Assembly: GCA_022793685.1 (NCBI GenBank)
Contig: JAAWDI010000046.1
Location: forward strand, 1 to 64,000
Direction of reading: 5' to 3'
Source: Oscillospiraceae bacterium
GTDB lineage: Bacteria; Bacillota; Clostridia; Oscillospirales; Oscillospiraceae
DNA: 64,000 nt
Made by a program: the position numbers and the translations under genes. Positions 43,378-60,853 of the stretch are shown here, in pieces; the first letter of the stretch is position 1; the number at the start of each line of letters is the position of its first letter. The notes below the pieces were generated by a model. That model searched no databases. It worked only from the letters and a program-made list of their open reading frames with translations, and was not told where the DNA came from.

Positions 43378-45303
43378 TTACAGGATAGCCATCGCTGCAT
43401 CATAGGCAGTACGGGTGGCGTTGAAAATCGTCCCCTGCCTGGTGTTGCAGTCGCCCAGATAAACGACCTCCGGCGCGCAGTCCGCAAAGGAGCGGGCCAA
43501 CTCCGTCCTGGCGCGCACGCCAAGGGAGAGCACCAGCGTATCGCAGGGCATCTCCATTGCCTCCCCGTTCCGTGTTACCGTAATACCCCTATCCGTGACG
43601 GCCTCCAACCGGGTTTCCGGCAGAATTTCCACGCCCCGCAGCTCCATCATCTCCCGCAGCGCCAGAATATTCATCTTTGCGCCGCCGGTTCCGATTTTAT
43701 CGGCGCTTGCCATATCGATGAGGGTAACCTTCTTCCCCTGCCGGGACAGGTCAACGGCGCACTCCATGCCCGTCATGCCCGCGCCGGCAATGATAACGGT
43801 GTCGCCCACCGTCACGTTGCCCATGTCCACATCGCCCACCCAAACAGCCTTGGGGTTGCCCTTCAAGAAATCGGGAATAAGCGGCTCGCTGCCCACGGCC
43901 ACCAGCACTGCGTCATAGCTTTCCGCTTTCAGGGCAGCGGGGGTGGCCTCCGTGTTCAGCTTGACGGTGATGCTTTCGTCCCGCTCCACCATACGAACGC
44001 TCCATTCAATATAGCGGCGGATGTCCGCTTTCATCTCGGAAGCGGCGGCCAAATTGAGGGCGCCGCCCAGCTTGTCCTGCTTTTCGTACAGGGTAACCTT
44101 GTGGCCGCGCTTTGCCGCCGTCCGGGCGGCCTCCATGCCGGCGGGGCCGCCGCCCACCACCGCCACCTTGCGGGAACCTTCCGGTGCGGGATAGTTCATC
44201 CACAGCATTTCCCGTCCCAGCGTGGGGTTGATGGCGCACCGCACGGGCAGAAAGCCGTTGTGGGTGCGGTGGATGCAGGTGTTGCAGCGGATACAGGGCT
44301 TGATTTCGTCTGCCTTGCCCCGCTTCAGCTTGCGGGCAATCTCATGGTCGGCCAAAAGGGGACGGGACATGGATACCAAATCAATTTTCCCGTCCGCAAT
44401 GGCCTGGGACGCCACCTTGTAGTCCATACCGCCCACACAGGACACCGGAATATGCAGCGCCTTTTTGAACTGCTCCGCATAAGGCAGATTAAAGCCCCGC
44501 TCGAAGTACAGCGGCGGCATGACATAGGGCGTCAGCTTATGCACCGCAAGCTGTCCGCGGGAAACGTGGAGCCAGTCTATCTTGTCCTCAATCACCTTGA
44601 CAAACTCGATAAGCTCCGGCATTTCCGGGCTGCCCTCCATCATGTCCGTGCCGCTGATGCGGTACTCAATGGCAAGGGCGTCCCCCACTGCGGCGCGGAT
44701 ACCGTCCAGAATTTCCACGGTAAAGCGGCAGCGGTTCTCAAAGCTGTCACAACCGTATTCATCGTGGCGGTGGTTATACAGCTTGGAGAAGAACGCCGCT
44801 GGGGGCTGGAGATGTGCGCCGTGGATGACCACATAATCGCCGCCCGCCTTCTGAACCCGCACCGCCGCGTCGATGTATTGCCCAATCATTTCCTTGACTC
44901 CGGCGTTGTCATAGTTGTCTGGACTTATCTCAATTTGGGGCATTCCCTTTTTGTCCCGCTCGTCAAAGGTCTCGGTCTCGCCGCCGATGGGCACCAACTC
45001 GATGCCAGCCTTGCAATCATAGGCGTGGACGGTGTCAAACATCTGGGTAAGCTGGTTGATACAGCTATCATTGGACAGGTCGGGCAGTGTGATGCCATAG
45101 GGAATGGGCGTGATGGAGCCGGTGCCCACCGCCACACAGGCCGCGCCGCCTACCGCCAGCCCCCGCACCCACTCGATGAGTTCCCGATTGATATGGTTGT
45201 CCGCCGTGCAGAAAAAGGGGTAGGTCGGAGAAAAAAGAATACGGTTTTTCAGTTCCATACGCTTGGTGCGCAGGGGTTGGAGCAGATTTTGATAGTCGCT
45301 CAT
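43378..45303 (-). CDS. NADH:flavin oxidoreductase with Fe-S and FAD/NAD domains (second copy)
   Basis: Start placed at ATG 45301-45303 (MSDYQNLLQPLRTKRMELKN) with GGGAGGT 6 nt upstream; the track adds 26 codons of leader. The 641-residue protein has the OYE barrel (NRILFSPTYPFFCTADNH, GIELVPIGGETET, IHGAHLQPPAAFFSKLYNHR), the cluster motif CIRCNTCIHRTHNGFLPVRC, and the two nucleotide folds VAVVGGGPAGMEAARTAA and VIIAGAGMTGMECAVDL. Architecture equals the copy at 18.7-20.6 kb but with clear sequence differences in the barrel, so substrates probably differ. A ~70-bp element shared with the transglutaminase gene lies just upstream. Confidence 0.92.
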   Translation of the reverse strand: MSDYQNLLQPLRTKRMELKNRILFSPTYPFFCTADNHINRELIEWVRGLAVGGAACVAVGTGSITPIPYGITLPDLSNDSCINQLTQMFDTVHAYDCKAGIELVPIGGETETFDERDKKGMPQIEISPDNYDNAGVKEMIGQYIDAAVRVQKAGGDYVVIHGAHLQPPAAFFSKLYNHRHDEYGCDSFENRCRFTVEILDGIRAAVGDALAIEYRISGTDMMEGSPEMPELIEFVKVIEDKIDWLHVSRGQLAVHKLTPYVMPPLYFERGFNLPYAEQFKKALHIPVSCVGGMDYKVASQAIADGKIDLVSMSRPLLADHEIARKLKRGKADEIKPCIRCNTCIHRTHNGFLPVRCAINPTLGREMLWMNYPAPEGSRKVAVVGGGPAGMEAARTAAKRGHKVTLYEKQDKLGGALNLAAASEMKADIRRYIEWSVRMVERDESITVKLNTEATPAALKAESYDAVLVAVGSEPLIPDFLKGNPKAVWVGDVDMGNVTVGDTVIIAGAGMTGMECAVDLSRQGKKVTLIDMASADKIGTGGAKMNILALREMMELRGVEILPETRLEAVTDRGITVTRNGEAMEMPCDTLVLSLGVRARTELARSFADCAPEVVYLGDCNTRQGTIFNATRTAYDAAMAIL

Positions 45304-45337
45304 GGCCATACCTCCCGTCGTTTGCTTGTGCCAATTA

Positions 45338-45411
45338 TGCCGTAGGCGCAGCACGCCGTTGTGGCATATGTGTAAAATCAAACATAATAGCTGCTTTCAG
45401 TTATTATAGCA
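45338..45411 (-). repeat. Duplicated upstream element, copy A (in front of the second OYE-type gene)
   Basis: This element and 58589-58660 share about 53 of 68 aligned bases, in the same orientation relative to the downstream minus-strand gene. Read on the minus strand it contains a palindrome TAATAACTG/CAGCTATTA (one G-T pair), a TTGATTTTA segment, and a second stem GGCG-TGCTG-CGCC enclosed by GCC/GGC. A minus-strand promoter TTGCGC-N17-TATAAT overlaps its upstream edge, so the first palindrome overlaps the -10 region. Confidence 0.65.
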
Positions 45412-45460
45412 TCAAACAACTTGTGGCGCAACGCATCCCCGCCGCTCTACCTCAAGTCGG

Positions 45461-45512: not shown

Positions 45513-46853
45513 ATGAACGCCGTATATACTGGCAGCCGAATCGCCACCCTACGCAAGGATAAAGGGTGGACCCAAAAAGAACTGGCGGAACAGCTTCACA
45601 TCACGGACAAGGCCGTCAGCAAATGGGAGCGGGGCCTCAATTTCCCAGACCTTGCCCTGCTGGAGCCGCTGGCCGCCGCATTGGACACCTCAGCGGCCGA
45701 CCTGCTGGGTCTGGAGGATACCTCCGCCGCTGTGCTGGAGGCCGTTGCAGAGCTTCACAATAAGGAGGAAGCCAAGCTGAAAAAGCGGCTTTTGGCAACC
45801 GGGTGCATTTTTATGGCGCTGAGCCTTGTCATCTTCCTTTACCTCCTCGCCTGCGGGACTGGCCCGCACCCCTCAATCACGCCGCAAGGTCTGCTCCACA
45901 TCGTGGCTCTTGCCCTGTTTACCGTCAGCTTCCACGCCCTTTGGCCCTTTGCCGACAAGACCGCGGTCTTTTGGGTGGGCGCTGTCAAAGGCTCCCGCGT
46001 TGTCACAATGTCAGGCTTTTTCGTCAAGCGCCCGCCTATGCCTGCCGGTATGCTTCCAAAGCAAGAGGAAGCAGACACACCATCCGCCTTACTCCTTGAA
46101 GACGACCTCCCGTCTCCCGAACAGGTCAAGGCCGCTCTGAGCGTTCCCGGCTACAAGCTGTTGCCCGCCCTGCGCCTCCTATTCGCCGTCGGCATTGTGA
46201 ACATTCTGCTGGCGGTCATTTCCTGCTTTGGCCCCCATTGGCTGAACATAGCGGGCGCCATTGTGCTTTTGGTTGGTACGGTCATGCTTTGCCGCGCTAT
46301 TCGCAGCAGGGAGCTGTTGGCCGGCGCTGTCTTCGGCGCGGTCAATCTGGGGCTAATGATTATCTTCTTTTTTGCCCTGCCATCCTCCCTGCCTGTCTCA
46401 GGGAACCTCATTGCGGGTATTGTCCTTGTGGTGTGCGGCGTCGCCCATACAGTCTGCCTGTACCGCGGAATGGCTGACCATATGAACGCACGGGGCTTCC
46501 GTGGAGAAGCGACCACAGCCGTGCTTGCCGCCAACCTGACGATTTTTCTCTATGCGACCTCTGTTTGCTTGATGGGGTACAGCTTGTATGACAACCCGCA
46601 GGCATGGGGTTTTGGCCTTGAGGCACCCCTGCTTCAAGGCGCGCTCACGGTAGTGGAAACACTGCGCTTCGGAATGCCTGCGGCGGCGTTGCGGGCAATC
46701 TGGACTTCTTTACAAGACGTGCTCTTTAGCAACCCTGAGACAATCCTGCTCTGCATCGCTGTGGCGGTCTTTGCAGTGACCGCCCTCGGCAGCGGCGTTT
46801 CCTTCTTCCGCAAATGCTGTCGCTGTCTGAACGCGGAAGCGCCGGAAGGGTGA
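45513..46853 (+). CDS. XRE-family HTH protein with multi-pass membrane domain
   Basis: The first 70 residues are an XRE HTH (TGSRIATLRKDKGWTQKELAEQ; HITDKAVSKWERGLNFPDLALLEPLAAAL). A linker is followed by about eight hydrophobic segments, including LLATGCIFMALSLVIFLYLLACG, LLFAVGIVNILLAVISCFG, WLNIAGAIVLLVGTVMLC, LAGAVFGAVNLGLMIIFFFALP and AVLAANLTIFLYATSVCLMGY. Clostridial proteins of this layout are membrane-tethered regulators that often control a neighbouring transporter or stress gene. An internal hydrophilic stretch holds KRPPMPAGMLPKQEEADTPS. Directly downstream is the remnant of a second copy. The regulated gene and signal are unknown. Confidence 0.85.
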   Translation: MNAVYTGSRIATLRKDKGWTQKELAEQLHITDKAVSKWERGLNFPDLALLEPLAAALDTSAADLLGLEDTSAAVLEAVAELHNKEEAKLKKRLLATGCIFMALSLVIFLYLLACGTGPHPSITPQGLLHIVALALFTVSFHALWPFADKTAVFWVGAVKGSRVVTMSGFFVKRPPMPAGMLPKQEEADTPSALLLEDDLPSPEQVKAALSVPGYKLLPALRLLFAVGIVNILLAVISCFGPHWLNIAGAIVLLVGTVMLCRAIRSRELLAGAVFGAVNLGLMIIFFFALPSSLPVSGNLIAGIVLVVCGVAHTVCLYRGMADHMNARGFRGEATTAVLAANLTIFLYATSVCLMGYSLYDNPQAWGFGLEAPLLQGALTVVETLRFGMPAAALRAIWTSLQDVLFSNPETILLCIAVAVFAVTALGSGVSFFRKCCRCLNAEAPEG

Positions 46854-57585: not shown

Positions 57586-58512
57586 TCAGGCGCCTCCGGC
57601 GGCAGGAACAGGTCGTTGTTGTCGTGGCCGTCGCCCACATGCGTTAAAATTCCAGTGACTGGTCAAAAACTCCTCGTCGGAGCGCAGCAGCCAGCTCTCA
57701 TCCGGCCTTTCCGGGTCACCGTTGTCCATCCATGTCACGTCCACATGATACCACTGCCCGTCCACCCGCACCAGGTTCCATGCGTGATGGGCGCTCCTCG
57801 TCTCGCCAGAGACCACGATGCTGTCCAGCCCCAAGGCCTCCGCCAAACACTGGAAGGTCTGGGCGTAGCCCTCGCAGACGCACATGCCGTACACCAAAGC
57901 GCCGTATTCGCTGCCGGCAAAGCGGTTGCGGTCATGGTTTTCCCTGCTCCAGCCGCCCTCCAGGCTTTCATAGTTGTACTCCAGCTCATTGCACATTAGG
58001 TCACAGATGGCGCGCACCTTCTTTTCGTCGGAGGCGTCCTTGCCCGGCAGCTTGGCCACCCATTCCTCAAAGACCGGCTCGAAAGCGGCGGTCATCTCCT
58101 CCCGGCTGCCGACGGGGACAATGGCTTCCCCGCGCTCTACCCCCACAAAGCCCGTGAAATCCTCGTTGGTAATCAGCACGTACTTTCCCCACTGCCACCG
58201 CCGCACCGCGTGGAGGGCGTTGTACAGGTCCAACACGTCCAGCATGGCCAGCCATTTCTGGTCTTCGTCACCGCTGAGGAGCGGCTCGTCAAACAGATAC
58301 GGCTCGCCTTCGGTGATAACGCCCGACTCCAGCACCTCATAAAGCTGCCGCTGCTCCTCCGTCATCTTGGCAACAAAGAAATCCCGCACCGAAACCTCCT
58401 CCGCAGCGGGCTCTGTCTCCGTCGGAGACGGCGTAGGGTCGGGCCCTCCCTGGGGCGTGCAGCCTGCCAGCAAAAGCAGAGCGAGCAAAAGAGGAAACAG
58501 ACGCTTTTTCAT
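57586..58512 (-). CDS. Lipoprotein with transglutaminase-like domain, apparently frameshifted near its C-terminus
   Basis: Start placed at ATG 58510-58512 (MKKRLFPLLLALLLLAGCTP) with GGAGGG upstream; the signal ends in a lipobox LAGC. The transglutaminase-like core shows YGMCVCEGYAQTFQCLAEALG (catalytic Cys), SAHHAWNLVRVDGQWYHVDV (His) and TWMDNGDPERPDE (Asp region). The frame then ends in an odd Arg/Pro/Gln-rich tail. Removing one G from the GGG run near 57628-57635 gives instead NACGDGHDNNDLFLPPEA and then PESWWAQDAA, ending at 57558-57560. This reads like a natural C-terminus, so a one-base insertion (real or sequencing error) is likely. The full gene would span 57558-58512. Confidence 0.85.
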   Translation of the reverse strand: MKKRLFPLLLALLLLAGCTPQGGPDPTPSPTETEPAAEEVSVRDFFVAKMTEEQRQLYEVLESGVITEGEPYLFDEPLLSGDEDQKWLAMLDVLDLYNALHAVRRWQWGKYVLITNEDFTGFVGVERGEAIVPVGSREEMTAAFEPVFEEWVAKLPGKDASDEKKVRAICDLMCNELEYNYESLEGGWSRENHDRNRFAGSEYGALVYGMCVCEGYAQTFQCLAEALGLDSIVVSGETRSAHHAWNLVRVDGQWYHVDVTWMDNGDPERPDESWLLRSDEEFLTSHWNFNACGRRPRQQRPVPAAGGA

Positions 58513-58588
58513 GGTAATCCCTCCGGTGTTGTAATGAGCCGGCCTCATGTACCAAAGGCGCGGCGGCATATAGCCTGCGGCCATTGCA

Positions 58589-58660
58589 CCACAGGCGCAA
58601 CACGCCGTTGTGGGACATGGATAAAATCAAGTACAATAGCCGTTTGCGGCTATTGTAACA
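58589..58660 (-). repeat. Duplicated upstream element, copy B (in front of the transglutaminase-like gene)
   Basis: About 53 of 68 positions match 45338-45411. Read on the minus strand, CAATAGCCG pairs perfectly with CGGCTATTG (4-nt loop), then TTGATTTTATCC, then a stem CCACA-AC-GGCG / CGCC-TGTGG around TGTTG. Differences from copy A in the first palindrome are partly compensatory (TAATAACTG/CAGCTATTA versus CAATAGCCG/CGGCTATTG). It ends 76 bp upstream of the lipoprotein start. Confidence 0.65.
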
Positions 58661-58734
58661 CAGGCCGGTTAAAAAAGCACGAAAAACGCCGGGAGGCTCT
58701 TCCGCACAACAGGTTGCAGTCTGCATGGGCTTTC

Positions 58735-58764
58735 TTGACACTTTACCACAAAATAGGGTAAAAT
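58735..58764 (+). promoter_or_regulatory. Promoter of the topoisomerase subunit B gene
   Basis: TTGACA (58735-58740) and TAAAAT (58759-58764) with an 18-bp spacer, about 100 bp upstream of the ATG at 58862. Confidence 0.65.
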
Positions 58765-58861
58765 AGTAAAAGACAGCTATTTGATAATGCCATATACTGC
58801 AACGGCGCGCCGCGCCTGTAGTAAGGCAAAGAGTAAATGACCGCAAAAAGGAGAACCGACC

Positions 58862-60853
58862 ATGGCAAAACCGTCCAAAGATTACGGCAACGACTCCATC
58901 GCCTCCCTCAAGGGTGCAGACCGGGTACGCAAGCGCCCCGGCGTCATCTTTGGTTCCGACGGGTTGGAGGGCTGTGAGCACGCCGTCTTTGAAATTCTCT
59001 CCAACGCCATTGACGAGGCCCGCGAAGGGCACGGCTCCCTCATCACTGTCCGCCGCTTTGCGGACGGCTCCATCGAGGTGGAGGACCAGGGCCGCGGCTG
59101 TCCGGTGGCATGGACCGAGAAGGAGCAGCGCTACAACTGGGAGCTGGTGTTCTGTGAGCTGTACGCCGGCGGCAAGTATGGCGGCAGCGAGGGAGACAAC
59201 TATGAATATTCCCTTGGCCTGAATGGTCTTGGCTCCTGCGCCACCCAGTACGCCAGCGAATATATGGACGTGACGGTCTGGCGGGACGGCAAAAAGTACT
59301 CCCTCCACTTTGAGAAGGGTGAAAATGTGGGCGGTCTTTCGGAGGAAGAAACCGACCGCGGCAAGAAAACGGGCACCCGTATTCGCTGGAAGCCTGACCT
59401 GGACGTGTTCACCGACATCGCCATTCCCGCCGACTATTTCACCGACGTGATGAAACGGCAGGCGGTGGTCAACGCCGGCGTCACCTTCCGCTTTCTGGAC
59501 GCGGGACAGGAGGCCTTGGAGTTCCGCTACGACAACGGTATTTTAGATTATGTCACCGAGCTTGCGGGGGAAGGCTCCCTCACAGCGCCCACCTTCTGGC
59601 AGACGGAACGGAAGGGCCGAGACCGTGAGGACAAGCCGGAATATAAGGTGAAGCTGTCGGTCTCCTTCTGCTTCTCCAATACGGTACAGATAATCGAGCA
59701 CTATCACAACTCCAGCTGGCTGGAGCACGGAGGCAGTCCGGAAAAGGCCATGCGCTCCGCCTTCGTCTCCGCCATCGACGCTTATCTGCGGGGGCAAAAC
59801 AAGTACCAGAAAAATGAGAGCAAGGTCACCTGGAACGACATTCAGGACTGCCTCGTGCTGGTGAGCAACAACTTCTCCACCCAGACCAGCTATGAAAACC
59901 AGACCAAGAAGGCCATCAACAACAAGTTCGTGCAGGAGGCCATGGCCGACTTCCTCCGCGCCCAGCTTGAGGTCTACTTCATCGAGAACCGCTTTGACGC
60001 GGAGAAAATAGCGGAGCAGGTGCTGGTAAACAAACGCTCCCGTGAAACGGCGGAGAAGGCGCGGCTGAACATCAAGAAGAAGCTCTCCGGCAGCGTGGAC
60101 ATCTCCAACCGGGTGCAGAAATTCGTGGACTGCCGCTCCAAGGATGTGGAGCAGCGGGAACTGTATATCGTGGAGGGTGACTCCGCATTGGGCAGCGTCA
60201 AGCTCTCACGGGACGCGGAGTTCCAGGGCATCATGCCGGTGCGGGGCAAGATACTCAACTGTCTCAAGGCGGACTATGCCAAAATCTTTAAGAGCGAAAT
60301 TATCACCGACCTTTTGAAGGTTATGGGCTGCGGCGTGGAGGTGCAAAACAAGCACGTCAAAGACCTGAACGCCTTTGACAAGGCCAACCTCCGCTGGAAC
60401 AAAATCGTCATCTGCACCGACGCCGACGAGGACGGCTTCCAGATACGCACCCTTATCCTGACCATGCTGTGGCGGCTCACCCCCACCCTCATCAAAGAGG
60501 GCTATGTCTATATCGCGGAGACCCCCCTTTATGAAATCACCTACAAGGACGGCGGTAAGGACATGACCTGGTTCGCCTATTCGGAAAAAGAGAAAAACGA
60601 CATTCTCTCTGGTGAGTTAGTGGACAAAAAGTACAGCCTTCAGCGCTCCAAGGGTTTGGGCGAGAACGACCCGGAGATGATGGCACTGACCACCATGAAC
60701 CCCGCCACCCGGCGGCTTATCAAAGTCCTGCCGGAGGGCGCCGACCTGACGGCGCAGATGTTCGACCTGCTGCTGGGCAACAATCTTCAGGGACGGAAGG
60801 ACCACATCGCCAACGAAGGGTACAAATATTTGGAATTGGCCGACATCTCATAA
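58862..60853 (+). CDS. Type IIA DNA topoisomerase subunit B (ParE-like, divergent branch)
   Basis: The ATPase/TOPRIM subunit of a type IIA topoisomerase, 663 residues. The GHKL ATPase domain shows RVRKRPGVIFGSDGLEG, EILSNAIDEAREGHG and SLGLNGLGSCATQYAS. The TOPRIM domain has YIVEGDSALGSVKLSRD, where gyrase and ParE usually read EGDSAGGSAKQGRD, and CTDADEDGFQIRTLILTMLWR instead of the common DADVDGSHIRTLLLT. These differences place it in a divergent clostridial branch rather than GyrB. The C-terminal QRSKGLGENDPEMMALTTMNP is conserved. AAAGGAG precedes the start. Its A-subunit partner lies downstream, after an intervening secreted-protein gene. Confidence 0.9.
   Translation: MAKPSKDYGNDSIASLKGADRVRKRPGVIFGSDGLEGCEHAVFEILSNAIDEAREGHGSLITVRRFADGSIEVEDQGRGCPVAWTEKEQRYNWELVFCELYAGGKYGGSEGDNYEYSLGLNGLGSCATQYASEYMDVTVWRDGKKYSLHFEKGENVGGLSEEETDRGKKTGTRIRWKPDLDVFTDIAIPADYFTDVMKRQAVVNAGVTFRFLDAGQEALEFRYDNGILDYVTELAGEGSLTAPTFWQTERKGRDREDKPEYKVKLSVSFCFSNTVQIIEHYHNSSWLEHGGSPEKAMRSAFVSAIDAYLRGQNKYQKNESKVTWNDIQDCLVLVSNNFSTQTSYENQTKKAINNKFVQEAMADFLRAQLEVYFIENRFDAEKIAEQVLVNKRSRETAEKARLNIKKKLSGSVDISNRVQKFVDCRSKDVEQRELYIVEGDSALGSVKLSRDAEFQGIMPVRGKILNCLKADYAKIFKSEIITDLLKVMGCGVEVQNKHVKDLNAFDKANLRWNKIVICTDADEDGFQIRTLILTMLWRLTPTLIKEGYVYIAETPLYEITYKDGGKDMTWFAYSEKEKNDILSGELVDKKYSLQRSKGLGENDPEMMALTTMNPATRRLIKVLPEGADLTAQMFDLLLGNNLQGRKDHIANEGYKYLELADIS

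Follow-up and report, generated by a model that had tools for sequence, protein, structure and literature searches.

A stretch of 64,000 nucleotides from an Oscillospiraceae bacterium (referred to here as the window) raises the question of why two genes with no obvious common function are preceded by the same element of about 70 bp. The initial annotation, which described these two copies (A and B), suggested that the first palindrome of the element might be an operator and that the second might form an RNA structure in the 5' untranslated region (UTR) of the mRNA.

Copies in the window and the source genome

A search of the whole source assembly (1.67 Mb in 69 contigs, 73% complete, and the sole genome of its genus among those compared) aligned copy A (45344-45411, minus strand) with copy B (58585-58660, minus strand) with an E value of 1.4e-9; the 68 aligned bp are 78% identical, as originally estimated. 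It was also correct that both copies have the same orientation relative to the minus-strand gene downstream. That the two regions share an element was upheld, but the count of two was not: the window holds a third copy (Table 1), contig C56 of the source genome carries two further full copies in tandem (46221-46354, upstream of a znuA-type gene; whole-assembly search), and contig C26 has a degenerate copy. Copy B and the third copy occupy a common divergent intergenic region, each pointed at its own gene. The tandem pair on C56 (L014:3700-3860, G000) lies directly after a bidirectional terminator-like hairpin, and its second unit is partly decayed.

Table 1. Element copies, putative promoter motifs, and adjacent genes in the window. 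R1 is the covariance model of the window's class of elements.
Feature	Position	Strand	Basis
Element copy A (bulge-AC class), preceding OYE-type oxidoreductase gene	45333-45414	-	Model R1, 76.8 bits
Copy A -10 box TATAAT, within hairpin 1 left arm	45403-45408	-	Sequence
Copy A -35-like TTGCGC, spacer of 17 to -10	45426-45431	-	Sequence; spacer-17 enrichment across all copies
Copy A hairpin 1, centred on predicted start site	45382-45409	-	
Copy A hairpin 2, AC bulge, GGCG-CGCC core; 3' arm runs into second -10-like CATAAT	45336-45368	-	
Gene 3' of copy A: OYE-type FMN/FAD oxidoreductase	43378-45303	-	PF00724 and Pyr_redox_2
Element copy B, upstream of transglutaminase-like lipoprotein gene	58582-58663	-	Model R1, 85.8 bits; DNA fold z -5.3
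Copy B -10 box TACAAT within hairpin 1; matching change in opposite arm	58652-58657	-	Sequence
Gene 3' of copy B: transglutaminase-core lipoprotein	57586-58512	-	PF01841
Third copy, divergent from copy B; hairpin 1 degenerate, hairpin 2 intact	58753-58828	+	Model R1, 30.3 bits; E 1.6e-4 and 5e-5
Promoter TTGACA-18-TAAAAT bearing third copy	58735-58764	+	Insert-free counterpart in relative G022
Gene 3' of third copy: B subunit of a type II topoisomerase, gyrB/parE type	58862-60853	+	PF00204, PF00986, PF01751

Promoter geometry and insert-free counterparts

Read on the gene strand, the element consists of a TGnTATAAT motif, a palindrome (hairpin 1), a spacer of 12 to 13 nt, a second hairpin (hairpin 2), and a second TGnTATAAT. 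The left arm of hairpin 1 begins with the TATAAT of the first motif, and the overlap of the first palindrome of copy A with a -10 box had been recognized previously. The GGCG-TGYTG-CGCC stem that was reported to be kept between copies A and B is indeed kept; it is part of a longer stem, hairpin 2, which has a GGCG/CGCC-type core, a constant 2-nt AC bulge (ACAAC), and a 3' arm leading into the second TGnTATAAT. Because the distance from TATAAT to the hairpin 1 loop is about 7 nt, the purine loop is the predicted transcription start, and the left arm would not be transcribed.

When 127 distinct upstream regions were considered for the wider family of elements, -35-like hexamers were enriched solely at spacers of 17 to 18, and on the gene strand only. 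The window's class followed this pattern: 14 of its 56 copies had at least four of six -35 matches at spacer 17, versus roughly 2 elsewhere. Over the set, the sigma-A arrangement of a -35 element 17 bp from the -10 box was found, with variation among individual copies, and we infer that the element-bearing promoters are active. The two TGnTATAAT copies at a site tended to be the same variant, agreeing within genomes in 148 of 176 letters (mean of shuffled pairs 133, maximum 144), and n was identical in 67 of 74 repeats of the wider family. Local quasi-palindrome repair is an alternative source of this site-by-site agreement. Related elements that share hairpin 1 but differ in the middle hairpin were seen at L062, L064, L130, L075, and other loci; one class has a kept UC/AACC internal loop and another is of the GGCCGCCCTACGGGCATGGCC type, and all share the orientation and the position relative to the -10 box.

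The coding flanks of element-bearing loci were used to retrieve orthologs from congeners. The initial annotation had missed what these comparisons suggest, namely, that the element is an insertion, with orthologous promoters occurring with and without the block. The cleanest pair was found upstream of a hexokinase-like gene, where genome G207 has a single 71-bp block directly after GGTATAAT that genome G076 lacks. Both flanks are near-identical, and the promoter TTTACG-17-TATAAT is common to the two genomes. The block in G207 is bounded by GGTATAAT on the left and GGTATGAT on the right, a candidate target-site duplication whose right copy is also part of hairpin 2. Four other promoters had the insert at the equivalent point: another one from the G207/G076 pair and those of DEAD-box helicase, mscS-type, and gamma-carbonic-anhydrase-type genes (names read from the sequences). 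The topoisomerase promoter that bears the third window copy is insert-free in G022, where it is recognizable as TTGACACTTTA...GGGTAA, and R1 had no match upstream of the other topoisomerase orthologs read (one weak match lies elsewhere in L325). For copy A, no OYE ortholog close enough to reveal an empty site was found among 40 relatives.

The block thus seems to behave like an insert placed at the -10 box. Recombination between the two TATAAT copies could account for a single empty site as a loss. Parsimony suggests insertion rather than loss as the direction of change.

Distribution and base pairing of the element

Of 301 genomes from the bacterial family, 98 had R1 matches, the highest count per genome being at least 15; among approximately 398 other genomes of the phylum, only 1 had a match at a stricter cutoff. 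Copy number ranged within a genus from at least 15 to 1 (genus g4) or from 12 to 1 (genus g15). A scan of GTDB genomes located the core palindrome in at least 118 stretches; the matches listed were mostly titled Oscillospiraceae or Clostridia metagenome-assembled genomes, and the named genomes of the set were Oscillospiraceae. A window-class copy with a hairpin 2 near the consensus was observed in a different family of the phylum (L314:375-449), for which horizontal spread is possible.

Placement was not random with respect to genes, as it would be in a simple repeat family. Element orientation followed the gene at 98 sites, whereas 13 sites disagreed or had been misplaced by the simple gene finder, and 18 lay at contig edges. 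The genes that follow the copies are unrelated, as the initial annotation had surmised from the two that it saw. They resemble a random sample, with 128 Pfam families in 68 downstream proteins and none in more than 3 of them. A regulon was rejected on the latter ground.

One explanation for these patterns is a host promoter architecture that is inherited vertically and in which slippage between the TATAAT direct repeats removed the block from the empty promoters. The TGnTATAAT repeats that flank each unit and the tandem gains and losses that were seen would suit such slippage. At the DEAD-box helicase site, however, one genome is filled whereas four relatives, which carry TATACT, are empty, and at the hexokinase-like site two further congeners are empty, making three empty and one filled. 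These ratios, the unrelated downstream genes, and the jumps in copy number between congeners make vertical inheritance improbable.

The pairs with and without the insert, the copy-number jumps, the non-orthologous genes, the fixed position at the -10 box, and the uniform orientation instead lead us to conclude that the element is probably a non-autonomous mobile element of about 70 to 80 bp that inserts immediately 3' of sigma-A -10 hexamers in one orientation. Survival bias could mimic such targeting. Insertion at TGnTATAAT would leave the host -35/-10 spacing intact, and the right end of the element would supply a second, extended -10 box, so that the gene would stay expressed and the insertion would be tolerated. 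The end of the element would also be a new target, which fits the tandem arrays. If this is true, landing to the base at the -10 box would let a mobile element spare its host, since genes would be entered at their starts and kept on, and some of the variation in promoters and leaders across a dominant family of gut bacteria would be accounted for.

The compensatory changes between the palindromes of copies A and B that the initial annotation had pointed out are present in the sequence, and covariation was strong in the larger alignment. Across 54 distinct copies, 93% of the cells pair and 163 were changed on both sides (at most 27 in slid controls; 0 of 500 shuffles reached 163), in an alignment that was fitted to the model and so leans towards structure. 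These features bear on the idea that the palindrome is the operator of one conserved transcription factor over the -10 box and start site, accompanied by a leader RNA. A symmetric palindrome across the start site and a fixed orientation would be expected of such an operator. However, the arm sequences vary with full compensation, even between copies in one genome, so that pairing rather than sequence is kept, and the genes form no regulon. We therefore regard an operator as exceedingly improbable.

By general expectation rather than a control, an RNA helix under selection usually accepts G.U much more readily; here, departures from pairing comprised 25 G.T and 40 A.C, with G.T not commoner in either hairpin. 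Because hairpin 1 spans the predicted start site, it cannot form within its own transcript. That G-U is not preferred to A-C and that hairpin 1 lies outside its own transcript indicate that the pairing is kept at the DNA level. As DNA, the complete element folded far better than shuffled sequences in copy B (Table 1) and two other copies (z -9.6 and -6.7) and weakly better in copy A (z -1.2) and the third copy (z -2.0).

A cis-acting 5'-UTR RNA, such as an attenuator or mRNA stabilizer, that has spread to many genes would account for the location of hairpin 2 near the 5' end of mRNAs that start from the first -10 box. Conservation of pairing at the RNA level, however, was not what was observed. 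Neither stem favors G-U, hairpin 1 falls outside the RNA, and the leaders predicted for the mRNAs of copies A and B had no or only slight gain over shuffles (z 0.16 and -1.6), with a slight gain for the third copy (z -2.3). Furthermore, an Rfam search of the window and 18 loci returned no family covering the element. This leaves a 5'-UTR RNA very unlikely, contrary to the initial suggestion for the second palindrome. As a caution, a hairpin close to a start site in these genomes need not be an operator or an RNA switch. A match to the Rfam family STnc490 (62.1 bits; L062:7787-7896), unexpected in this group, lies about 6.7 kb from an element on the same contig.

Alternatively, the palindromes might be functionless and kept solely by quasi-palindrome correction during replication, with mobility either as proposed above or rare. 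Such correction would give pairing that is Watson-Crick only and similar counts of G.T and A.C. It should also remove the AC bulge and the ACAAC motif, yet both persist, and we give this explanation little credence.

Mode of movement and relation to known repeats

REP sequences are extragenic and are not known to target promoters. Like the element, REPs and REPINs mobilized by TnpA-REP (RAYT) are small palindromic hairpins, one of them bulged, that occur both dispersed and in tandem (PMC3116915, PMC8266576). In contrast to that system, the Y1 partner is missing from most of the element-rich genomes tested. Searches with PF01797 detected Y1_Tnp in 4 of 16 element-rich versus 8 of 14 element-poor genomes, with none in the source genome and none in G269, a single-contig genome carrying 9 copies. 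A Y1 transposase was rejected as the partner, as its distribution does not track the element. In 12 genomes, neither a larger autonomous version with the same hairpin 2 nor a transposase or longer form carrying these ends was found, and the exact palindrome was absent from viral contigs.

IS608, of the IS200/IS605 family, inserts 3' of its target motif. The element resembles this family in its hairpin ends, its location 3' of a short motif, and sequence complementary to the target that agrees with it site by site (PMC5934647, PMC6006769). In IS608 the target is selected via base pairing to element sequence (PMC5934647). By analogy, the -10-complementary arms of the element may recognize the target by pairing, which would tie the arms to the target's variant. 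However, the element has no tnpA, no Y1 TnpA (PF01797) was found that it encodes or that would mobilize it, its target is a promoter -10 box, and the same motif stands at both ends. Movement as single-stranded hairpin DNA with target recognition by arm pairing, as in IS200/IS605, is offered only tentatively. Slightly more doubtful is the specific version in which a single-strand hairpin transposon homes to sigma-A promoters, its arms complementary to TGnTATAAT pairing with the -10 box. Such pairing might take place in the melted open complex, so that insertion would be into working promoters only and would leave them working. The element offers a testable case of target choice in which a promoter would be recognized via base pairing.

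Correia elements and other promoter-carrying miniature inverted-repeat transposable elements (MITEs) are likewise short, noncoding, dispersed upstream of genes, and promoter bearing (PMC10969869). The element is noncoding, mobile in the reading favored here, and multicopy, as MITEs are. Unlike them, it has direct TGnTATAAT repeats at its ends rather than terminal inverted repeats of their type, it lies precisely 3' of a pre-existing -10 box whose -35 it keeps, and its two hairpins covary. Pneumococcal BOX and RUP repeats are also small modular repeats of Firmicutes with tandem modules, but their sequences, target, and promoter geometry differ (PMC3049150). No description of the element was found among the papers listed for MITEs, REPs, BOX/RUP, and mobile promoters, and a full-text search with the element sequence returned matches on unrelated subjects, as judged by title. 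The best-supported classification is a new variant among small dispersed repeats such as MITEs and REPs, set apart by being placed, to the exact base, directly 3' of the -10 box. At one locus (L214, the end of contig C74 in G207), the contig stops exactly at a copy of the element, as near-identical repeats would cause in assembly.
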